From: Methylococcaceae bacterium
GTDB taxonomy: Bacteria; Pseudomonadota; Gammaproteobacteria; Methylococcales; Methylomonadaceae
Length of the DNA: 37,028 bases
Direction: 5' to 3'
Assembly (NCBI GenBank): GCA_030626845.1
Contig: DAOUTG010000017.1
Location: 1 to 37,028 of the forward strand
In this document: piece after piece, positions 14,392 through 27,612 of the stretch
Layout: every line of letters begins with the position of its first letter
Position numbering within the stretch: the first letter of the stretch is position 1
The notes under the pieces: model-generated
Told to the model about the DNA's origin: nothing
Database searches by the model: none
What the model saw: only the letters and a program-made list of their open reading frames with translations
Position numbers and translations under genes: made by a program

Positions 14392-17073
14392 ATGGGCCCC
14401 CATTATTTAAGTCCTTTTTTTACCCCCAAAGCTGTTGCCATTGTTGGTGCTTCAGAGCGTCCTGAAAGTGTTGGCTACCGCTTATTATTAAATATGCAGG
14501 AAGCAGGGTTTAAAGGGGAGTTATATCCTGTTAATCACAAACGCGATCAACTTTTAGGTTTAAAAGCTTACCCTGACTTAGAATCTGTTCCTGAATTACT
14601 TGATTTAGTCGTTATTGCAACCCCTGCCGTTACTGTTCCTTCTATCATTAAACAGTGTGCGACCAAAGGCGTTAATTCGGTTATTATTATTAGTGCAGGC
14701 TTTGGTGAACTTGGGACTGAGGGAAAACGTTTACAACAAGAAATCTTAGATATTGCTCATCGTTACAATATTCGTATTATCGGGCCTAATTGTTTAGGTC
14801 TCGCCCGCCCTAGTGCTTTTTTAAACGCCACTTTCGGTGAGGGTATCATCGCCGATGGACATCTTGCTTTATTGTCTCAATCAGGGGCTGTTTGTACCGC
14901 AATTTTAGATTGGGCAAAATCCCAGGAAATAGGCTTTTCAACCGTTGTTTCTATGGGCGGTGCGGCTGATATTGATTTTGGTGAAGTGCTAGATTATTTA
15001 GCAACCGATAGTAAAACCACAGGAATTTTAATGTACGTTGAGGGGATTCGTGATGCCCGACGTTTTTTAAGCGGATTGAAAGCTGCGGCACGTTTGAAAC
15101 CTGTGATCTTAATTAAATCAGGACGACATGAGGCAGGTTGTAAAGCTGCCATGTCTCATACAGGAGCAATGGTTGGCGGCGATGATGTTTTTGATGCTGC
15201 GATTGAACGTGCGGGGGTTGTAAGAGCCTACACGATTACCCAATTATTTTCAGCCGCACGAGTGCTTGCAAATAATTATGTCCTAAAAAGTAATAAACTA
15301 GCCATTATCACTAATGCAGGAGGGCCTGGGGTAATGAGTACTGATCGTGCTGAAGATGTTGGCATTACAATGGCGCAATTAAGCTCGACAAGTATTGAAG
15401 CTTTAAATCAAGTATTACCCGTTCACTGGTCTCATGCAAACCCTGTTGATATTTTAGGTGATGCCACTTCAGAACGTTATCAACAGGCATTAGAAATTTG
15501 CTTAAAGGATGAAAATATTGATGGCGTATTAAATATTTTAACTCCACAAGCGATGACTGAGCCGACAGAAGTCGCACAGTATTTAATTAAAGCGGCGAAA
15601 AAAACTAACAAACCTGTATTAGCTTCCTGGGCAGGGGGGGAAAAAGTACAAGCAGGGCGTGATTTATTTGCTAATAGTCGCGTAGCACATTTTAATACCC
15701 CAGAAGTTGCAGTAGACGCATTTTCTTTTTTAGCTAAATACCGCCATAATCAAATTCTACTTAAACAAATTCCATCACCTTCGGCTGAATTAATTGCCCC
15801 TGATATTAATGGCGCACGTCTAATTATTCAGCGTATTTTATCAGAAGGACGGCAAGTTTTAACTACGCAAGAATCCAAAGCTATTTTAACGGCTTTTCAT
15901 ATTCCCGTAACTCAAACAATTAAAGTTTATAATGCCAAAGATGCCATGATTACGGCTGAAACCTTAGGGTTTCCTGTGGTTTTAAAAATAGATATGCCTG
16001 AATTTAGTCACAAATCAGATATAGGCGGGGTGCGTTTAAATATTAATAGTGTACAAGATGTATCCTATAATTTTACTGAAATGGAAGCCAAAATTAAACA
16101 AGCGCATCCTGAGATTGAAATTGTGGTGATTACCGTTGAACCTATGTATTGTTCACAAAATGGACGAGAACTAATGATAGGTGTAGTTCGAGACCCTGTT
16201 TTTGGCCCTGCGATTAGTTTTGGTTTGGGGGGAACAATGGTTGAAATTTTGCAGGACAAATCAGTTGCTTTACCGCCATTAAATGCTTATATGGTTGAGC
16301 AAATGATTGCAAAAACTAAAGCGGCAAGCTATCTTTCTAAATTTCGCCAACTTCCCCCAATTAATCAACAAGCCTTAGTGAATGTATTGTTGAATGTTTC
16401 TATTATGATTAGCGAATTACCTGAAATTTTGGAGTTAGACATTAATCCATTGATTGCAGATGAAAATGGCGTTATGGCGGTGGATGCACGGATTAAAGCA
16501 GAAGTCACTCATCAATTAATGCCATATTCACATATGGCAATTCATCCCTATCCTTCTGAATTAACACGTCATTGTCAATTACCGAATGGCGTGGATATTA
16601 CCATTCGCCCAATTCGCCCAGAAGATGCGAATATGGAAAAAGATTTTGTTCACAGCCTGTCTGAACGCAGTAAATATTTGCGTTTCATGCAATCATTGCA
16701 GGAATTAACCCCTGAAATGATTGTTCGCTTTACTCAAATTGATTATGATCGTGAAATGGCTTTTGTCGCGGTTACTGAACATGAAAATATGCCAACAGAA
16801 TTAGGGGTTGGACGTTATATTATGAACCCTGATGGACATAGTGTTGAGTTTGCCTTAGTGGTTGCTGATAGTTGTCAAGGGTTGGGGATTGGTGCAAAAA
16901 TCATGACAACGTTGATGAAAGCTGCTAAATATAAAGGGATTTCATTTTTTGAAGGCGAAGTATTAACAGTTAATAAACCCATGCTATCATTGGTTAAAAA
17001 ACTAGGATTTACGATAGAACCGATTGCAGGAGATAACGAAGTCGTTCGGGTGATAAAAGATTTAAGATTATAA
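14392..17073 (+). CDS. Pat-type protein lysine acetyltransferase with acyl-CoA synthetase half
   Basis: An 893-residue fusion with four parts in order: a CoA-binding domain (VAIVGASERPESVGYRLL, from residue 15), a succinyl-CoA ligase-like region with SHTGAMVGG (His256), an ATP-grasp domain (about 485-710), and a C-terminal GNAT acetyltransferase (about 735-893, with GLGIGAKIMTTLM as the acetyl-CoA loop). This is the architecture of PatZ/Pka, which acetylates and inactivates acetyl-CoA synthetase. It is transcribed alone and convergent with the RND gene. Family members such as Salmonella Pat are described as lacking ligase activity; whether this protein ligates acyl-CoA cannot be decided here. 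Confidence 0.9.
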   Translation: MGPHYLSPFFTPKAVAIVGASERPESVGYRLLLNMQEAGFKGELYPVNHKRDQLLGLKAYPDLESVPELLDLVVIATPAVTVPSIIKQCATKGVNSVIIISAGFGELGTEGKRLQQEILDIAHRYNIRIIGPNCLGLARPSAFLNATFGEGIIADGHLALLSQSGAVCTAILDWAKSQEIGFSTVVSMGGAADIDFGEVLDYLATDSKTTGILMYVEGIRDARRFLSGLKAAARLKPVILIKSGRHEAGCKAAMSHTGAMVGGDDVFDAAIERAGVVRAYTITQLFSAARVLANNYVLKSNKLAIITNAGGPGVMSTDRAEDVGITMAQLSSTSIEALNQVLPVHWSHANPVDILGDATSERYQQALEICLKDENIDGVLNILTPQAMTEPTEVAQYLIKAAKKTNKPVLASWAGGEKVQAGRDLFANSRVAHFNTPEVAVDAFSFLAKYRHNQILLKQIPSPSAELIAPDINGARLIIQRILSEGRQVLTTQESKAILTAFHIPVTQTIKVYNAKDAMITAETLGFPVVLKIDMPEFSHKSDIGGVRLNINSVQDVSYNFTEMEAKIKQAHPEIEIVVITVEPMYCSQNGRELMIGVVRDPVFGPAISFGLGGTMVEILQDKSVALPPLNAYMVEQMIAKTKAASYLSKFRQLPPINQQALVNVLLNVSIMISELPEILELDINPLIADENGVMAVDARIKAEVTHQLMPYSHMAIHPYPSELTRHCQLPNGVDITIRPIRPEDANMEKDFVHSLSERSKYLRFMQSLQELTPEMIVRFTQIDYDREMAFVAVTEHENMPTELGVGRYIMNPDGHSVEFALVVADSCQGLGIGAKIMTTLMKAAKYKGISFFEGEVLTVNKPMLSLVKKLGFTIEPIAGDNEVVRVIKDLRL

Positions 17074-19531: not shown

Positions 19532-20212
19532 TTAAATGATGTTCATTGCCTTTTGGATTTTAATGATTGCTTGACTATCTAATTGTGCCTCTCTATTGTG
19601 TTGCTGGCATAATGCGCCTCTAAAGCCTAAATAATCTGGATTTAAGGTTAATAAATCCTTAATATCATTTTCTCTTAATGAACCTGCTAATCCACATAAT
19701 AATTGTTGTTGTTTGGCTTGGGTTACAAAGTCAGCTATTTGTTTTGAATCCATTATCTGTCTTAGAGACCCTTGGCGTTTATTCATCGTATCGAGCATGA
19801 TGCCTTTAAAGCCTGTTTTTCTTAGAATTTCAATAAGATTAAAACAGGGCAGGGCATCTGCAAATAATACGGCGATCAATGATAAATTCGATTTTTTTAA
19901 TTCGGCTAATTTGTTGAGTGTTGCGATTGAATCGCCTTCAGGAAAAATGCCCATTTTTACATAGTCAACCCCTGTCGCTGCCATTGCTTTAACCGCATTA
20001 AAAACTAAATCAGGCTGCATGGGTAAGTCGCCTATGGTGGCACTTACAAGGGATTTTTTTTCAATTGTTTTGACAATATCTGCGACAACGCTTATTTCTA
20101 ATGCGCCTAACGCGCCTTTAGAGGGTTGTTTAAGATCAATAATATCAACGTTTGCAGCTAAAACCTGTAGGGCTTCTTGTTTATCTTTAACACTTGCGAG
20201 CATTCCTGTCAT
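19532..20212 (-). CDS. mfnB: (5-formylfuran-3-yl)methyl phosphate synthase
   Basis: MfnB (DUF556 family) condenses two glyceraldehyde-3-phosphates to the furan precursor of methanofuran, the formyl carrier of the tetrahydromethanopterin C1 pathway. The 226-residue TIM-barrel protein keeps the lysine-rich active site: Asp26 and Lys28 in DIIDLKQPSKGALGA, Lys86 in GVDYVKMGIFPEG, and Asp141 to Lys145 in LDTMNKRQGSL. Its start overlaps the DUF447 stop by four bases (ATGA), so the two are translationally coupled. The gene is a marker for methanogens and for bacteria that oxidise formaldehyde through H4MPT. Confidence 0.9.
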   Translation of the reverse strand: MTGMLASVKDKQEALQVLAANVDIIDLKQPSKGALGALEISVVADIVKTIEKKSLVSATIGDLPMQPDLVFNAVKAMAATGVDYVKMGIFPEGDSIATLNKLAELKKSNLSLIAVLFADALPCFNLIEILRKTGFKGIMLDTMNKRQGSLRQIMDSKQIADFVTQAKQQQLLCGLAGSLRENDIKDLLTLNPDYLGFRGALCQQHNREAQLDSQAIIKIQKAMNII

Positions 20213-20775
20213 GTGTTTTTAAGCTCCATTTTATAGGTATCAATTAACTCCATTAGCCAAGACCATGCTTGCCATTCTCGCTCACCTGCCGTTTTTTCAA
20301 AACCTATGCGTAAATAAGCAATGTCTGTTTCAATTTTTTCTAATGACAATCGTTTTAAGCGACTACATAAAATAGCGGCTTCCAATACGGAATATTGCGC
20401 GCGATTAAAGCCTGTAAAGGGCGCGTGATTAACGCTATGTATTAGTTTACAAAATAACTTAGGCCGTATCTCATCGTCTTCAATACGCAATAATTTTAAT
20501 TCACTATGGGCTAGGGTATTCGTTAATACTTGTCCTTCGATCAATTCAGCGGGTTGTAGTTCCCAATCTTTATGTCCTGTTAGGCAACCTGCAAACACAC
20601 GAACATCATCACAATAATTAATCACAGCAGTTTGTGATTTTAAAATATTGTCAAGTGTGGTTGACGGTTTAAAAGGAAGTATAATAAATTCATCATTTAA
20701 AAGATGAATCCCCATCGGGGCTATATGGGCGACACCGTGTTGATTTACGGAAGTCACAATGGTTTCTTGAATCAT
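20209..20775 (-). CDS. DUF447 family protein linked to C1-cofactor genes
   Basis: A 188-residue protein of the DUF447 family, recognised by its N-terminal split-barrel pattern: ETIVTSVNQHGVAHIAPMG, then FIILPFKPSTTLDNI and AVINYCDDVRVFAGCLTG, as in FMN-binding split barrels. The helical C-terminal half (FNRAQYSVLEAAILCSRLKRL) is also typical. Family genes occur in the methanopterin/methanofuran clusters of methylotrophs, and here the gene overlaps mfnB by four bases. The reaction is not established to my knowledge. A REP-like palindrome lies just upstream. Confidence 0.75.
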   Translation of the reverse strand: MIQETIVTSVNQHGVAHIAPMGIHLLNDEFIILPFKPSTTLDNILKSQTAVINYCDDVRVFAGCLTGHKDWELQPAELIEGQVLTNTLAHSELKLLRIEDDEIRPKLFCKLIHSVNHAPFTGFNRAQYSVLEAAILCSRLKRLSLEKIETDIAYLRIGFEKTAGEREWQAWSWLMELIDTYKMELKNT

Positions 20776-20852: not shown

Positions 20853-22907
20853 TTACTCAATAGTTGGGTCTTCAACGACCACATTACCTGTTTGGGAGAT
20901 ACGGCTTAAACGTTTCCACAATACCGCCCAATCAATGCGCGTATTATAGCCCATCACGTCAATACGCGGTAATCCCCCGCCTTTAACAATATAATAACCT
21001 CGTGTTCCCGCAGCTTCTGCACCCATTAATTGACACACGCCTTTATGTAGATAACAGCCTAAGCCCATTTTTTCATAATCAAAATTATCAAACATCCCTA
21101 AAATCATTCGGGAAACAAAATCTACTGCACCACCGCCCCCGATACTCGCAAGGTTTTCAACCGCTTTTTGGCTGATTTGATGCTTAGAATCATCATCGTC
21201 CTCTGTTCCCATCCACGCATAAAATTGTATCGGTTGCCAATTCTCCATGTATAACTCACGAACAAAGCCTGAAAGTTTACCTTTCATCCCTCCCGATTCA
21301 AGTTTTTGAGTTAATAAATTTAAATCTAAGTCTGTTACTTCTATATCACTATAAAATTGTGAAAAATCGGTGCTTAAACCTGATAAAGCTAATTGATTGA
21401 TATTAATTTCACCGCCAAATAAATTAATTTTTAAACCGCCTTCTAAACTTAGTTTTCCTGCCTCAAAATGCACGCCAGGAATATCACCACTAATACTGCC
21501 AGATAAAGATTTAACACCTAAGGTTTCAGTTAATTTTTCTAATGAGAGTGCTTGGATTTTACCTGCGAAAACAACTTTAGGGCTATTGTCTTTCATTGCT
21601 TGCCAGTCAAATTTATTAATTTGGATATTCCCACCTAATAAAGGAATATCAACGGATTTTAATAAACTGATTTGTTTATCTTTTAGTAATAAATTGAAAT
21701 AACTACGGGGTAGAGGAATGGCGTATAAATCTAACTGCCGCCAACTAATGCTGGAACTTTTCTTGAAGGCTTCATCTTTTGACCAGTTAAGGATAATTAT
21801 GCCATCGTGTAGATTGAAACGTTGTTTAGGATCTTTAAGTTGTAACTTATTAGTTGTTAAATAAGCTTTTTCGGCTTGGTTATTACGAATGCTAATACCT
21901 GCATCAATATTGCCTACTAACATTAATCCTTCTAAAGCCGTTGTTTCTGTGATTGAATTTAAATAAATTTTAGAGAGTTGCTCTAAACTCTCGATTTGAG
22001 CATAGGCTTTAGCAGAAATAATATTAAATTTGGGCTTAAGTTCAATGTTTGCATAGCCCTCTATAATGGCTATTTCAGGATGCGTAAATTGTAGTTTATC
22101 AAGGGTAAGTTGCTGACTGCCTAATTCAAATGAACCTTGAGTTTTTAAATTAATAAAGGTATTTTTATTTTCTAAATACAAGGGTTCAAAATAAAGACTG
22201 CCTTGTTTGAAAATACTTTGCTGTTGCCAATGCCAGCGTTGTTTGTTTCCTGTTGCTTTCAGTGTTGTTTTTAAGCTTAGGTTTTCTGTTGCTTTCTTAC
22301 CATCTTTGCTTTGTAAAGAAAGTTGATTAAGGTTTATATTTGCATTAATACCTTTTGCTTGAGTCCCTTTGCCATTGGCATTAATTTTTAAATCAATAGT
22401 GCCTGAGGAAAGTTTGTGGGTGGGAAATAAGAGTTGTTGAACTAATTTTAGGGCTATTTTTTTACCCTTGAGCTGCATTGTCCACTGATCTTTTTTTAAA
22501 TTGGCTTGTAGATTGAGAACACCGCTCAATAATTTGAACTGATTGATTGTAAACTGCGTTTTAGTCTCACTAATGAGAAAAGAAAAATTCAATCGGGGGG
22601 AATTAAAACGTTTTGATCGAATTGAAGCTTTACCTTGTTGACAATGAATTTTTGTGTCGTTCCAGATGAATTGTTGACAACGAATATCAACTAAATTCAG
22701 GTCATTAAAAGGTTTAGGTAAGTTTAGTTTTTGTATTGATAAGCCAAACTGTTGCGGCTGTTTACTTATTGCGCCTAAACTGACTTCTATTCCTTGTAAG
22801 TTCCATTTTTGAAAGCTTAATTGTTCCAGTTTTACAGTCACTGATTCTAGTGCGTAAGTATTTGAACTAATTAGTATTATTAAAAATACAAAAATATATT
22901 TGGTCAT
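20853..22907 (-). CDS. AsmA/YdbH-like envelope protein
   Basis: A 684-residue protein with an N-terminal signal or anchor (MTKYIFVFLIILISSNTYA) and a long body of repeating amphipathic strands (LKLNQLSL-, GEININQLALSG-like units). It resembles the AsmA/YdbH group of bridge-like envelope proteins that form a beta-groove for phospholipids. The C-terminal part with GGGGAVDFVSRMILGMF and GLGCYLHKGVCQLMG carries two cysteines that may form a disulfide. A periplasmic lipid-transfer role is inferred from general architecture only. It sits between the histidine kinase gene and DUF447, with short gaps. Confidence 0.55.
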   Translation of the reverse strand: MTKYIFVFLIILISSNTYALESVTVKLEQLSFQKWNLQGIEVSLGAISKQPQQFGLSIQKLNLPKPFNDLNLVDIRCQQFIWNDTKIHCQQGKASIRSKRFNSPRLNFSFLISETKTQFTINQFKLLSGVLNLQANLKKDQWTMQLKGKKIALKLVQQLLFPTHKLSSGTIDLKINANGKGTQAKGINANINLNQLSLQSKDGKKATENLSLKTTLKATGNKQRWHWQQQSIFKQGSLYFEPLYLENKNTFINLKTQGSFELGSQQLTLDKLQFTHPEIAIIEGYANIELKPKFNIISAKAYAQIESLEQLSKIYLNSITETTALEGLMLVGNIDAGISIRNNQAEKAYLTTNKLQLKDPKQRFNLHDGIIILNWSKDEAFKKSSSISWRQLDLYAIPLPRSYFNLLLKDKQISLLKSVDIPLLGGNIQINKFDWQAMKDNSPKVVFAGKIQALSLEKLTETLGVKSLSGSISGDIPGVHFEAGKLSLEGGLKINLFGGEININQLALSGLSTDFSQFYSDIEVTDLDLNLLTQKLESGGMKGKLSGFVRELYMENWQPIQFYAWMGTEDDDDSKHQISQKAVENLASIGGGGAVDFVSRMILGMFDNFDYEKMGLGCYLHKGVCQLMGAEAAGTRGYYIVKGGGLPRIDVMGYNTRIDWAVLWKRLSRISQTGNVVVEDPTIE

Positions 22908-22963: not shown

Positions 22964-24502
22964 TTATTGCTCAAAAATATCTAATAACTGGTTGAAATCA
23001 AAAGGGCGCATTAGGTAATCATTAACATGGGTTTCTTCTAAAACGTAGCTGATTGCAAATGCTTCGGTATGTTTTTCAAAAACAGCCAACGTTGCTTGGG
23101 GTTGGATATATTCATTTAACAATTGAAGTTGCCTTAATTTACCCGCAACATCTTGGTTATCTATATCAATCAGCATTAAGGTCACTTGATGCTCTAGGTT
23201 TAATGAACGAATATCTTCACCATGAGGATAACCAATGAGTTGGTATTTTTTGTAGGGCGCGAGTAAATTGCGTAATAATTCAAAATGGATGGCATTATCA
23301 TAAAAATAAACTAAACGATGAGGCGTATAATAGTCGTTTCTACCATAACAATTAAAGCTTAACGGTAAGTCTATGTAAAACACACTACCTATATCTAATT
23401 CACTACGAACACTCAATGAGCCAGACATTAAGCCTATCAATCGTTTGCAGCCACTTAAGCCAATACCATCGCCTTCTATTGTATTTTGTTGTTCTTTATC
23501 AAGACTTCTAACAAAAGGCTGAAAGATACTATCAATCGTACTATCTGTAATTCCAATCCCTGTATCTTTTATACAAAGACGCAGTTTTTCGGGTAAAACC
23601 TTATAACGAATAATAATACAGCCATTTTTTCTATTATATTTAATGGCATTATTGACTACATTAATAATAATTTGTTGAAAACGTTTATGATCAATTTTAA
23701 CTCTTATAGGATCTGAAATAAGATTAAAAACTTTAATTCTATGTTTCTTAGCAATAGGCTCTAACCAGTGTAAACAATCATTAATAACTGTATTAATAGG
23801 TAATGATTGCGTACATAACTCTATATTTTCATTTTCAAGTCGTGCGACTTCTAAAATTTCATTAATTAACCCCGTCATATGCGTACCCGCACTGAGCATA
23901 TTCTTAACACAATCATGTTGTTTTTGGTTAAGTTCACCAAAAATGCCTGCCTCTAAAAATTGAGTAAAGCCTAGAATAGCTGAAAGTGGGGTGCGTAAAT
24001 CATGAGTAATCTGAGAGAGCAATTTGGTTTTAGACTGGTTTGCTATTTCAGCTTGTTTTTTTCTTGATTCTAGTTCTTTTTGTGTTTGTGTTAACAGTAA
24101 AATATTTTTATTTTGTTGTTGATTTAATAAATCAATATTATGTCGTTCTTGTTGTAATGATTGTAGTTGTTTGAATTTTTCGCTAACATTAATAAATAAA
24201 ATATAAGTTTCATTTATAGAGGGTAAAATATGAATATCAGCCACAAGACCGTCTTCAAAATTTACAAAGTCTAAAATAAAAACTTCATCATTTTCTTCTT
24301 CACAGGAAAACCAGCCCTCTAAAAATATGAGTTTTCCACCAATATTTTCACTAAGATGTAAGTCTTTTAATCCATAATATTCAATGTCTGGATGCCAACT
24401 TTGAATACCGCCTTGTTTATCAAAACTTATGTAGGCAAATTTTCCAGATTCCAACCATAGGTGAGATAAATAGTTTTGGATTGATAAAGGTAAATTATTC
24501 AT
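22964..24502 (-). CDS. Hybrid histidine kinase with degenerate receiver domain
   Basis: A 512-residue soluble sensor kinase. The N-terminal 110 residues look like a PAS-type sensor, followed by a coiled coil (about 110-160). The HisKA domain has His167 in THDLRTPLSAILGF. The ATPase domain has an N-box NVVNNAIKYN (281-290), G1 DTGIGI and G2 GDGIGLSG. The last 120 residues fold like a receiver, with Asp402, Asp446 and Asp448 present but Arg499 where the conserved lysine is expected (LMRPF). No membrane segment is seen, so it is cytoplasmic. It follows the GTPase gene after a 94-base gap that may hold its own promoter. No cognate regulator is adjacent. Confidence 0.8.
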   Translation of the reverse strand: MNNLPLSIQNYLSHLWLESGKFAYISFDKQGGIQSWHPDIEYYGLKDLHLSENIGGKLIFLEGWFSCEEENDEVFILDFVNFEDGLVADIHILPSINETYILFINVSEKFKQLQSLQQERHNIDLLNQQQNKNILLLTQTQKELESRKKQAEIANQSKTKLLSQITHDLRTPLSAILGFTQFLEAGIFGELNQKQHDCVKNMLSAGTHMTGLINEILEVARLENENIELCTQSLPINTVINDCLHWLEPIAKKHRIKVFNLISDPIRVKIDHKRFQQIIINVVNNAIKYNRKNGCIIIRYKVLPEKLRLCIKDTGIGITDSTIDSIFQPFVRSLDKEQQNTIEGDGIGLSGCKRLIGLMSGSLSVRSELDIGSVFYIDLPLSFNCYGRNDYYTPHRLVYFYDNAIHFELLRNLLAPYKKYQLIGYPHGEDIRSLNLEHQVTLMLIDIDNQDVAGKLRQLQLLNEYIQPQATLAVFEKHTEAFAISYVLEETHVNDYLMRPFDFNQLLDIFEQ

Positions 24503-24596
24503 AAGTAATAAAATATAAGTTTTAAGGTATCCTAGAGTAAAAAAGTTAAAATAACTAGATTCCAGTACAACTGTCTAAGTTAATAAACTTCACTCC

Positions 24597-25106
24597 TTAG
24601 GTGTTTGGTGCTAAAAATTGACTTAATGATATAAATGCTTCTTCTACTTGTTCACCTGTTTTCGCACTAGTGAAAAAAAGTTGTTTTTCCACTGCATTTA
24701 AACGGGCCATGTGTGCATCATCTATTTCCCATTGGGCTTTTAAATCAACTTTATTAATTAAGGCAACGAAAGGAATATCACCTAACAATTGGATAATATT
24801 TTGTTTAATATCCAAAGCAGCCTCTAGGGTCGTTAGGCGTGTACCATCAAGCACTAGTATAAACCCTGCCGCTCCACGTAAGTAGGTTTGCGATATTTTT
24901 TTAAACGAATTTTCACCCGCAATATCCCAAATAATGAGTTTAACTTTTAGAGCATCATTAACGGAAACTAATTTAGTATCCATTTTTACCCCAACGGTGG
25001 TTAAGTATTTGTCTGAAAATTCATTTTTAACAAAACGCCCGACTAAGCTCGTTTTTCCCACGCCAAAATCACCCAAAACACAAATCTTTTTTTGCAGTAT
25101 TTTCAT
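24597..25106 (-). CDS. Small Ras/Rab-like GTPase
   Basis: A 169-residue single-domain GTPase with all five G motifs: G1 GDFGVGKTS (12-20), switch I threonines at 36-37, G3 WDIAGE (60-65), G4 NKVD (118-121) and G5 TSAKT (146-150). It is closer to the Ras/Rab/MglA kind than to Era or Obg. The position matching Ras Gly12 is Phe14, and that matching Gln61 is Glu65, which suggests slow intrinsic hydrolysis and need for a partner. There is no C-terminal prenylation motif. Its start overlaps the stop of the OmpA-domain gene by four bases, so the two are probably made together. Confidence 0.88.
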   Translation of the reverse strand: MKILQKKICVLGDFGVGKTSLVGRFVKNEFSDKYLTTVGVKMDTKLVSVNDALKVKLIIWDIAGENSFKKISQTYLRGAAGFILVLDGTRLTTLEAALDIKQNIIQLLGDIPFVALINKVDLKAQWEIDDAHMARLNAVEKQLFFTSAKTGEQVEEAFISLSQFLAPNT

Positions 25107-27037
25107 TTTTTTTCCTTCTTATTAAAAATAACCGCAAAACCTACTTTGCGTTGTAATTTATTGCTACGTCGAATGGTTGATAATTGTGAGGCAATGATCA
25201 TTTCAACAGGAACTGCTTGTTGTCTTAAATAGTTAATAATTTTTTCCGCGCGTTTTAGTGCCAGTGCTGTATTGTATTTAGTCGTATTAAGTCCATCAGT
25301 ATGCCCTGTAATAATAAGGTACATGGTCTGTTCTAACTGTTCACTTAAATGATTAGTTTCTTTAATAAGGCTGACTAAATTTAGTAATTTTTTAGATTGT
25401 GTTTCAAGAAGTTCTGAACCTTTAATAAAATAAATAAATTGTTTTTCTAGTTTTTCGCTTAATATTTGCCGTTGTTTTTCTTCTGTAATTTCAAGTTTAT
25501 CAAGTTGATAATCAGTAATGAAATTTAGTTTGGCTATTTTTTTAGCTAAAGCATTTCGCCAAGCAATGGGCGCGATACCTTGTAACTGCAAATAACCTTT
25601 TTGGAAAAAGACCGCCACTGTTTCAGGTGTTTCTAGTTGTTGGTTAATAAATTGCGGATAAGTTTGCAATTGATGATACTCAATTGCAGTGACACCAGTC
25701 AAGACAGGCGTAATGATAGCTAAGTTTTTAATCCAAGCTTTATCGGCAACGCCTGTTAGTATAAGGCGAGTCTCTTTAAGGGTGATCTTAACCAGTGGCG
25801 GTGCTTGTAAAACCTGTTTTAAGCGTTGTTCTGCAATAGCTGGGACTAGAGAATGATAGGCTTGCCAGTCGGTTTTAACTTCATCAACTTGTAAGGTTGA
25901 ATTTTTAAGAATTTCATTTGGATTTGCAATTAAAGGGTCATAAAGTCCTTTAATAACCAGCTCACCTTGCTGATAATTATTTTCTGTTATCACAATGCCC
26001 TGATATTGTAATAACAAATTTAAATAATTTTCACGGCGTTGTTCAAATAACCAGCTATCATAAGCCCAATAGCCAAAAATAGCGAAAATAAGTAGTAAAG
26101 GAATTAAAATATATTTTCCTGAAACAGCCGATTTGTCTTCTATTTGTTTACGCTCTGATAATAAACATTTTTCTAATTCAGAATCAATAACAGCAAGCGG
26201 TTCATTATCCCCTTCAAATTTAGTCAATAGACCGATATATTTTTGATGAATATCACCTAAAATAGTTTCAAAATGATCCCGTAATGAATAAGGAGGAATG
26301 CCTTGAATAACACAAGCGAGCATTGCATAAGCCCCTCGATCTAAAAAGACGGTGTAATCACCAATTTCAACCGTATCTAATTTATCTTGTTGGTTCGCTG
26401 AAAATGAGTCTTGGGTAAAATCTTGAATGGCAGTTAGCATGGCAGAAACGGCATCACTATCACGTAACTCATCTATTCCTTCATTAGAGACATGACGTAA
26501 TAATAAACCTGTTTCTCGATGAATGAGAAAAGCTTGTTCAACCCGATAGGTTAAGGTATTTCGTAAAACCACTTCACGATAAGGCATCCCACTTCGCCAA
26601 GCTTGATAATGCCAAGCGAAACGGTTGATAGATAAGCCTTGCTCAATGGCAGAATTTAACGATTGCATCACCTCTTTAAACGCCTCTGCAATCGACTTTT
26701 TAATCATTGGCAGAATAACAGGATACAAAGCATCTACATAAAGCTCAGGTTCACGGTGAACGGACTCAACAAGACAGGCTTGCACGGTATCATGCAGTGC
26801 TTCATCTAAGGCATCACGTAACAAAACACCGTCGGCTTGACGTATTGCTTTAGGGAGTGCAAGCGCAATTTTTTTAGCATGCGCTTTTGGGCTTTTAAAA
26901 TAAAACTCAAGTTGTTGAAGACGTTTATCTTCCTCAGATAACAACAGTGTTTTTAAAACCTGATAGCTTTTTTGTTCAAGGCGAGCATTTAAAGGCGTAT
27001 TATTTTGTTTAACATCCTCATTATTTTTTTCAGTCAC
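25103..27037 (-). CDS. Inner-membrane protein with roadblock/longin-like and OmpA domains
   Basis: A 644-residue protein with one membrane helix (about 309-325, YILIPLLLIFAIFGYWAY) dividing two halves. The cytoplasmic half is helical at first. At about 165-270 it has the pattern AFLIHRETGLLLRHVS, AVSAMLTAIQDFTQDSF, TVFLDRGAYAMLACVIQG and a final helix, which resembles a roadblock/longin fold. The periplasmic half has two segments like BON units (about 415-460 and 473-515) and a C-terminal OmpA-like domain (about 530-640) with ITGHTDGLNTTKYN and LALKRAEKIINYL. The overlap with the GTPase gene and the roadblock-like part suggest direct regulation of that GTPase. Confidence 0.8.
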   Translation of the reverse strand: MTEKNNEDVKQNNTPLNARLEQKSYQVLKTLLLSEEDKRLQQLEFYFKSPKAHAKKIALALPKAIRQADGVLLRDALDEALHDTVQACLVESVHREPELYVDALYPVILPMIKKSIAEAFKEVMQSLNSAIEQGLSINRFAWHYQAWRSGMPYREVVLRNTLTYRVEQAFLIHRETGLLLRHVSNEGIDELRDSDAVSAMLTAIQDFTQDSFSANQQDKLDTVEIGDYTVFLDRGAYAMLACVIQGIPPYSLRDHFETILGDIHQKYIGLLTKFEGDNEPLAVIDSELEKCLLSERKQIEDKSAVSGKYILIPLLLIFAIFGYWAYDSWLFEQRRENYLNLLLQYQGIVITENNYQQGELVIKGLYDPLIANPNEILKNSTLQVDEVKTDWQAYHSLVPAIAEQRLKQVLQAPPLVKITLKETRLILTGVADKAWIKNLAIITPVLTGVTAIEYHQLQTYPQFINQQLETPETVAVFFQKGYLQLQGIAPIAWRNALAKKIAKLNFITDYQLDKLEITEEKQRQILSEKLEKQFIYFIKGSELLETQSKKLLNLVSLIKETNHLSEQLEQTMYLIITGHTDGLNTTKYNTALALKRAEKIINYLRQQAVPVEMIIASQLSTIRRSNKLQRKVGFAVIFNKKEKK

Positions 27038-27048
27038 GATTGTTGTTT

Positions 27049-27612
27049 TTAAAGATTATCACTAGTAAATAATGAGGCGACACTCGCCTTATCAATTTTA
27101 GTTTTTCGTAATATATCTAGTTCCTTTTCAAGCAAGTTATTTGTTTCTTCCCGTAATTGGTGTAAATTTTGGCGTAGACTTTTAACATTATCATGTTCTT
27201 GATTGCGTAGTTTACGAATTTCATCAAGACTTTGGTTTTCTAATTCTCCCAAGCGTTGAATAAGTAACTCATCTGCTTTTTTAAGGGAGGTTTCTATTGA
27301 AAATAAACTTTCTTGACGTTCTTTTTTTTCTAGTTGAAGTTTATCGGTTAAGGTTTCAAACTCCTGTCGAACTAGGGTTTCTAATGCCGTCATTCGTAAT
27401 TCCATATCCTCACGTAAATGGATAGTTTCTTTATTCAAATGGGTTTCTAATGAGGCAAAACGGCTTTCATTTTTACGCATTTCTGTGCCAAAAAGAATAT
27501 CACGAATTTTATTGATATTTTGACCCCCATCAATTTCAATGGGGGATTTTTCTATTTTTTGAGTTGAGTCCATATTTTTTATCGTTTGTGAAATGTAGTG
27601 GAAATACTGCAT
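27049..27612 (-). CDS. Coiled-coil protein of the GTPase/OmpA cluster
   Basis: A 187-residue soluble protein, nearly all coiled coil from about residue 45 to 170, rich in Glu, Lys, Arg and Leu heptads. A short conserved-looking block NKIRDILFGTEMRKNESRF precedes the coil, and a small ending KIDKASVASLFTSDNL follows it. No membrane segment is seen. The start may be the inner ATG at 27573 (MDSTQKIEK), since the first 13 residues look unlike the rest; neither start has a clear ribosome-binding site. It lies 12 bases after prmC and 11 bases before the OmpA-domain gene, which suggests one functional unit with that gene and the GTPase. Confidence 0.75.
   Translation of the reverse strand: MQYFHYISQTIKNMDSTQKIEKSPIEIDGGQNINKIRDILFGTEMRKNESRFASLETHLNKETIHLREDMELRMTALETLVRQEFETLTDKLQLEKKERQESLFSIETSLKKADELLIQRLGELENQSLDEIRKLRNQEHDNVKSLRQNLHQLREETNNLLEKELDILRKTKIDKASVASLFTSDNL

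Follow-up and report, generated by a model that had tools for sequence, protein, structure and literature searches.

What system is encoded by a compact row of minus-strand genes at positions 22964-27612 in a stretch of DNA from a Methylococcaceae bacterium, and what might control the small GTPase among them? The stretch (contig DAOUTG010000017.1 of assembly GCA_030626845.1, positions 1 to 37,028; here called the window) had been read from its letters alone in an original prediction, which saw a three-gene module for a coiled-coil protein, a membrane protein and a Ras-like GTPase, likened it to MglA/MglB and knew no characterised system with this layout. We identify this row of genes as a signalling system of the Group 1 Rup type. 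Since the layout has already been published (PMC4316618), the locus is an added member of a known system, one more copy of a known module. We favour, with moderate confidence, a reading in which a predicted longin domain in the membrane protein would be where the GTPase docks and is controlled, and the output protein would read its GTP state. The analysis adds to the published picture the predicted longin assignment, a co-occurrence test and a broader survey of the output proteins and of a glutamine (Gln) that they share. The predicted fold and the near-invariant Gln bear on what regulates Rup and on how Rup hydrolyses GTP.

A four-gene Group 1 Rup locus

A check of the open reading frames (ORFs) of the window recovered all three predicted genes on the minus strand, with the spacing claimed for them: an 11-base gap (27038-27048) separates the coiled-coil gene from the membrane-protein gene, and the latter shares 4 bases (25103-25106) with the GTPase gene. 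As an account of the complete module the trio fell short. Its fourth gene is the histidine kinase/output gene at 22964-24502, which begins 94 bases past the GTPase stop and had been missed. Upstream of the module lie prmC and hemA (family matches), which puts its border on that side at the coiled-coil gene; the ORF between these two, recognised by eye, we take to be prfA. The module and its parts are as follows.

27049-27612, minus strand: coiled-coil cytoplasmic protein, the module's first gene (ORF of 187 amino acids)
25103-27037, minus strand: membrane protein with predicted longin domain, membrane helix, middle periplasmic region and OmpA domain (644 amino acids, GTG start)
26150-26551, minus strand: predicted longin-fold domain, membrane-protein residues 163-296 (AlphaFold2 model and VIA match)
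26072-26128, minus strand: single hydrophobic segment, membrane-protein residues 304-322 (Kyte-Doolittle scan)
25187-25432, minus strand: OmpA-like domain, membrane-protein residues 536-617, with D581 and R596 (Pfam PF00691, 35.5 bits)
24597-25106, minus strand: Rup-type Ras/Rab-like small GTPase (169 amino acids; Pfam Ras and PDB Rab14 matches)
24912-24929, minus strand: G3 motif WDIAGE of the GTPase, Asp kept and catalytic Gln replaced by Glu (from sequence)
22964-24502, minus strand: output protein with N-terminal PAS-like domain (predicted), HisKA, HATPase_c and a sub-threshold receiver match (512 amino acids)
24149-24151, minus strand: codon for Gln118 of the output protein, near-invariant and located in the post-PAS helix (alignments)

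Excerpts of PMC4316618 (2014) describe the Group 1 Rup layout as a coiled-coil gene, a GTPase, a protein with a domain, a helix and OmpA, and an output protein; the GTPase lacks the Gln of its G3 motif, and the output N-terminus has an invariant Gln. The window locus shares the Rab-like GTPase without G3 Gln, the coiled-coil gene, the domain, helix and OmpA arrangement and the output Gln, and it differs in nothing of the layout. The layout was therefore not without precedent, though according to the same excerpts no Rup member had been characterised as of 2014. They also leave the partner domain, for which we predict a longin fold, unassigned, and describe both it and the GTPase-activating protein (GAP) of Group 1 Rup as open at that date. 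Among the papers listed in our searches of the open literature, with most subscription papers outside its coverage, none was a later study of Group 1 Rup or made a longin assignment; PMC13343842 discusses conservons and cites PMC4316618, and its excerpts contain no word beginning with Rup.

The components are found together

Relatives were collected by a GTPase-alignment scan of named genomes, which gave at least 577 confirmed candidates, and the best 80 loci were kept; this sample leans to close GTPases, and its query rows came from loci first found via the membrane protein. Linkage was counted in the 64 of these 80 loci with at least 3 kilobases before and 1.2 kilobases after the GTPase, the 16 with short flanks being omitted. 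Across these genomes the genes are indeed usually together, as a conserved module would have them. The membrane-protein gene lies within the locus in 54 of the 64 and just upstream on the same strand in 50, a separate coiled-coil gene is present in 47, and a kinase-profile (output) match follows the GTPase in 60. The full set, with the longin gene just upstream, a separate coiled-coil gene and a kinase-profile match, was found in 41/64. Ten loci have no membrane-protein gene, and all ten of their genomes encode the membrane protein elsewhere (E 1.6e-105 or better); one of them, L129, is from an assembly that also gave a complete locus, L153. At the output end, the GTPase gene shares 4 bases with the gene of a same-family kinase in L027, L028 and L032; in L029 the kinase gene comes next, 3 bases further on. 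Within a class sample of 29 loci (L067-L095), the membrane protein has a matching GTPase as its neighbour in 26, with a coiled-coil match ahead of the pair in 20 and all four profiles in 14; these counts are limited by some contigs that stop short and by outputs of other types, which escape the kinase profile.

Co-occurrence was also tight. Among 369 gammaproteobacterial genomes, the GTPase (E 1e-30) was found in 27, every one of which (27/27) has a longin protein (E 1e-12); in reverse, 27 of the 30 genomes with a longin protein have the GTPase at E 1e-30 (Fisher p 5.7e-38, kinship between the 369 genomes ignored). Two of the three remaining genomes, G111 and G353, have a divergent GTPase adjoining. 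Finally, L030 encodes the coiled-coil and longin membrane proteins as one chain, with the coiled-coil protein at the N-terminal end; the same fusion in L171 is apparently on the same contig (30,324 bases each) and is not an independent case. Coiled-coil and longin proteins also appear to share an N-terminal motif, seen at E <1e-3 in 4/62 longin N-termini versus 0/620 shuffled ones; one of the four is the fusion itself, and we regard the motif as suggestive only. By gene order and co-occurrence, then, the coiled-coil protein, membrane protein, GTPase and output protein belong together.

The membrane protein carries a predicted longin fold

Residues 1-315 of the membrane protein were modelled with AlphaFold2 from a 53-sequence alignment (52 relatives and the window protein), built from 62 longin sub-ranges after omission of ten (long variants and the duplicate L099). 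In the model, helices run to about residue 161 and are followed across 164-289 by strand, strand, helix, three strands and helices, with a predicted local distance difference test (pLDDT) of 78-97 in ten-residue blocks across residues 161-290. The first rows of a Foldseek search were Ragulator, TRAPP, Mon1-Ccz1 and MglB chains (E 9.5e-5 to 3.8e-4). With VIA, the top match to residues 163-296 was the Sec22b longin (Z 13.2, 2.6 Å over 122 residues); other Z scores were 13.2 for TRAPP, 13.1 for the Vamp7 longin, 12.9 for Fuzzy, 11.8 for a Mon1-Ccz1 chain, 11.1 for an Asgard roadblock and 10.9 for MglB. The 50 listed VIA rows (Z 13.2-10.5) comprise longin, roadblock, TRAPP, Mon1-Ccz1, Fuzzy-Inturned, COPI or clathrin-adaptor chains, and COPI and clathrin-adaptor chains themselves have the longin fold. 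Residues 163-296 are thus predicted from the model to adopt a longin fold, in agreement with the roadblock/longin-class segment that had been placed at 165-270. We prefer longin to roadblock because Z is about 2 higher and the match reaches about residue 296 as against about 273. Arg143, in the helix preceding the domain, is nearly invariant in the 53-sequence alignment and is at most a candidate finger.

Beyond the longin domain, the window protein has a single hydrophobic segment (304-322), in keeping with the one membrane helix claimed earlier. Exactly one such segment was found in 44 of the 52 proteins scanned (51 relatives and the window protein), two in six and none in two. The sole Pfam match of the window protein at E 0.1 is OmpA, at residues 536-617 (35.5 bits, cut-off 27.2), and Robl_LC7 gave none. 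Among the same 52 members OmpA was matched in 46 and BON in five (E 0.1), and a D-x(13-15)-RA pattern scan hit the final 30% of 44, some of its matches being loose. An Asp/Arg pair 15 residues apart marks peptidoglycan-binding OmpA domains, and the window domain has such a pair in D581 and R596. Judged by its sequence, the domain is of the wall-binding type that the original prediction had proposed.

Some loci depart from the one-gene arrangement: L102 has two longin-OmpA genes (1075 and 839 amino acids), as does L109 (983 and 810), and in some long class members of the membrane protein the N-terminal part is matched a second time. The window genome also encodes a Robl_LC7 protein elsewhere (L176; G000, C29, 5298-5540; E 3.3e-16).

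A GTPase without its catalytic Gln and an output protein with a conserved one

The GTPase matches Pfam Ras (E 2.6e-32), and among the best 60 of 636 PDB rows its closest solved structures are Rab proteins, with Rab14 at E 6.4e-24. Motifs G1-G5 read GDFGVGKTS, TTVG, WDIAGE, NKVD and TSAK and are intact apart from a Glu that replaces the Gln after WDxxG; D61, the G3 Asp, is present. The G3 Gln was found in none of 113 GTPase sequences, the window's included (100 distinct contexts), and the most frequent residues at its position are Glu, Asn, Ser and Thr. Several of these 113 GTPases, and of 110 output proteins, come from genomes reached twice (e.g. L027 and L096). By its motifs the window protein is a small single-domain GTPase with Ras-like G1-G5, Rab-like and without the catalytic Gln.

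The output protein of the window is a 512-residue histidine kinase with HisKA, HATPase_c and a receiver match below threshold. A model of its residues 1-150 (mean pLDDT 91.5) has a PAS domain and then a long helix from residue 107, and the PAS domain of ThkA is a structural match (Z 10.1, 2.1 Å over 82 residues); we predict that the N-terminal domain is PAS-like. The post-PAS helix carries Gln118 (window numbering). An output ORF was obtained from 77 of the 80 loci (not L110, L145 and L159), which with the window makes 78, and Gln118 is kept in 76 of these. One of the two misses, L146, is a wrong ORF whose true neighbour reads VLQLARE, with the Gln present; in the other, L106, position 118 is Leu and position 117 is Gln. 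An overlapping second set gave Gln118 in 31/32, the miss being L094, one of a divergent pair with uncertain alignment. The adjacent Gln117 is invariant (42/42), and Gln118 nearly so, in a narrower PAS alignment of the window and 41 output proteins with the domain near the ORF start; in the wider alignment Gln117 is present in 61/78, and a second class, reading LQxAR, mostly has Leu there.

Behind this N-terminus the catalytic parts vary. At E 1e-5, the 78 outputs matched HATPase_c (58), HisKA (51), receiver (46), class III cyclase (6), HD domain (2) and sigma-54 activator (2), and neither GGDEF nor EAL was among the 17 families listed at this threshold. The presence of the same Gln-bearing N-terminus on several kinds of output argues that this part meets the shared components. 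The outputs, be they kinase, class III cyclase, HD-GYP type or sigma-54 activator, point to signalling in general. Excerpts of PMC4316618 name kinases and diguanylate cyclases/phosphodiesterases as outputs, to which the relatives here add class III cyclase, HD-GYP-type and sigma-54 proteins. OmpR-type response regulators adjoin some loci (6/6 tested were confirmed), with none beside the window locus.

Several of these outputs merit mention in their own right. The class III adenylate/guanylate cyclases occupy the output position of six Rup loci (L128, L134, L143, L152, L161 and L166), from Desulfobacterota, Myxococcales and Coatesbacteria according to the record titles; such an output is not named in the excerpts of PMC4316618. 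The sigma-54 activator proteins at the output position are L156:1691-3496, which has a PAS-like N-terminus, and L175:8009-9793, whose gene lies 511 bases from that of the GTPase with a short ORF matching the output profile in between. Two kinase-like ORFs follow the GTPase in L121, L130, L141, L142, L146, L148 and L158 (Verrucomicrobiota per titles); in those of L121 and L130, HATPase_c was found and HisKA was undetected or below cut-off.

A model for Rup signalling and its alternatives

These results suggest a model in which the GTPase would dock at the longin domain and be controlled by it, the domain serving as guanine nucleotide exchange factor (GEF), GAP or platform, roles between which a predicted fold alone cannot tell. 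The domain would perhaps be dimerised, helped by its own helical N-terminus and by the coiled-coil protein. GTP loading would be set by conditions in the wall or periplasm, sensed via the OmpA part and the helix, and Rup-GTP would bind the PAS/linker region of the output protein and switch its catalytic part, which in the Methylococcaceae organism would be that of a histidine kinase. Gln118 may complete the active site of the GTPase, so that output and hydrolysis would be coupled, an idea already found in PMC4316618. In favour of this scheme are the fold match, the linkage and co-occurrence, the Gln pattern, the fusion of coiled-coil and longin proteins in one lineage, and the published layout.

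A number of observations weigh against it. The longin call comes from one AlphaFold2 model with a mean pLDDT of 81.3 and a predicted template modelling score (pTM) of 0.54, and, the models being of single chains, contact between GTPase and longin domain is presumed. Sequence proof of a longin/roadblock relation was sought and given up, three comparisons being non-significant. A profile search of PDB sequences with the longin domain gave no match at E 10, and Pfam Robl_LC7 matched 1/52 longin proteins, at E 0.056. A profile-profile comparison with 26 Robl_LC7 proteins (27 were found and L191 was omitted) scored 14.7 (E 0.11); it spanned residue 166 to about 244, the first strands and helix of the model, and its score was inside the shuffled range, at least 8 of 200 column-shuffled controls exceeding it, while one reversed and four unrelated control alignments came close at 10.6-14.4. 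Elsewhere in the membrane protein, 6/52 members have no OmpA match at E 0.1, and the idea of OmpA as an essential part was dropped; two class members are only 407 amino acids long. One genome, G236 (L071), has longin-OmpA and coiled-coil genes and no GTPase in 16 kilobases or in the genome (E 1e-30). The system is patchy: seven of the 61 relatives have it, as do four of the six genomes in the genus. As for Gln118, its role in the signalling helix may be structural.

Might the longin domain do less than the model supposes? It could be an inert anchor, outside the nucleotide cycle, by which the membrane protein tethers the GTPase, or else the coiled-coil protein, to the wall while another protein serves as GEF and GAP. 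A shared fold proves no function, and 10/64 loci have the GTPase without a longin gene, nine of them keeping the downstream kinase-profile match and the tenth, L129, having an HD-GYP-type gene. However, all ten genomes still encode a longin protein, and the co-occurrence is tighter than a mere anchor needs; we consider this explanation rather unlikely. Less probable again is the pairing of the original prediction, in which a roadblock-class domain would be the GAP of the GTPase and the two would set cell polarity or motility. MglA/MglB does resemble the locus as a small GTPase with a roadblock-class partner, MglB being a GAP according to literature abstracts, and both structure searches list MglB chains (Foldseek E 2.7e-4, VIA Z 10.9). 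However, MglB is a free protein and the window partner a membrane protein, and longin fits somewhat better than roadblock, covering more of the domain. MglA lacks the conserved G3 Asp (PMC4316618, excerpts), whereas the window GTPase keeps it and has lost the Gln, as have all 113 sequences, and its top PDB matches are Rab proteins. The product of the fourth gene, moreover, is an enzyme or activator that belongs to two-component or second-messenger signalling, and the excerpts of PMC4316618 report no Rup member coupled to MglB. Membership of MglA/MglB was ruled out by the G3 sequence and the absent Robl_LC7 match.

The actinobacterial conservon (cvnA-D), to which PMC4316618 likens the Rup system, offers another comparison: its single operon combines a GTPase and a kinase with a roadblock-class protein and one further small protein. 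By analogy the kinase would be the sensor and the GTPase the output, and the same kinds of part are indeed present. The conservon, however, pairs an MglA-type GTPase (CvnD) with an MglB homologue (CvnB), whereas the window locus has a Rup-type GTPase, a predicted longin and OmpA membrane protein and a coiled-coil protein. In addition, some relatives have cyclases, HD-GYP-type or sigma-54 proteins in the kinase slot, and response regulators adjoin some loci; the swapped slot and nearby regulators make the fourth protein look like the output end, and we find a sensor role for the kinase improbable. With no Robl_LC7 match and a GTPase that is not of MglA type, conservon membership was ruled out, and the conservon is kept as an analogy.

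The preferred reading, of a longin domain that docks and controls Rup, invites comparison with the eukaryotic longin regulators of Rab proteins. Eukaryotic longin dimers are GEFs. TRAPP, Mon1-Ccz1 and Fuzzy-Inturned likewise set a longin fold (Z 11.8-13.2) beside a Rab-like GTPase, whereas the bacterial protein adds a membrane helix and OmpA, and no sequence similarity to them was detected in the PDB profile search. If the assignment is true, a longin partner in bacteria would bear on the origin of Rab-longin regulation, because Rab, Ran, Ras and Rho proteins are described as very similar to Group 1 Rup in excerpts of PMC4316618. The locus would also represent a route for signalling from wall to cytoplasm that uses a small GTPase. 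In its boldest form, to which we give little weight, the system would be a bacterial Rab-longin switch: a longin domain anchored across the inner membrane to peptidoglycan would load a Gln-less GTPase, and the post-PAS helix of the effector would donate the Gln and unload it. Wall sensing, output and switching-off would on that view be united in one interchangeable module driving kinases, class III cyclases, HD-GYP enzymes or sigma-54 activators, and the pairing would predate eukaryotes.

Distribution and neighbouring genes

With the window's own genome counted among the 61 relatives, matches to the membrane protein were reported in 20 genomes. In seven these are at family level (E 1.8e-18 or better), and in the remaining 13 they start no earlier than residue 478 and are mostly to the OmpA end. 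The four genus genomes with the protein likewise include the window's own. Across the 369 class genomes the membrane protein is present in 30 (E 1e-12), from 18 numbered families. The 80 kept loci come from Gammaproteobacteria, Desulfobacterota, Acidobacteriota, Verrucomicrobiota, Myxococcota, Nitrospirota and Coatesbacteria, names assigned from record titles alone. By their titles, carriers of the module include the strains Tahibacter harae P2K (L174) and Desulfonema magnum 4be13 (L128). One metagenome-assembled genome carrying the module (L127) is titled Klebsiella pneumoniae, a title we suspect to be wrong.

Within the window, the coiled-coil protein matches no family above its cut-off. Nor is there any Pfam match above cut-off for a 684-amino-acid protein (20853-22907), whose gene is the first one past the kinase and has the same orientation. 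Further along, at 14392-17073, lies a gene for a CoA-ligase-like protein with a GNAT-like C-terminus, which scores 543 bits with the acetate-CoA ligase alpha profile, just below cut-off. At 19532-20775 a 4-HFC-P synthase gene adjoins a DUF447 gene, a pair that suggests C1-cofactor synthesis, which agrees with the closest relatives being titled as Methylococcales.

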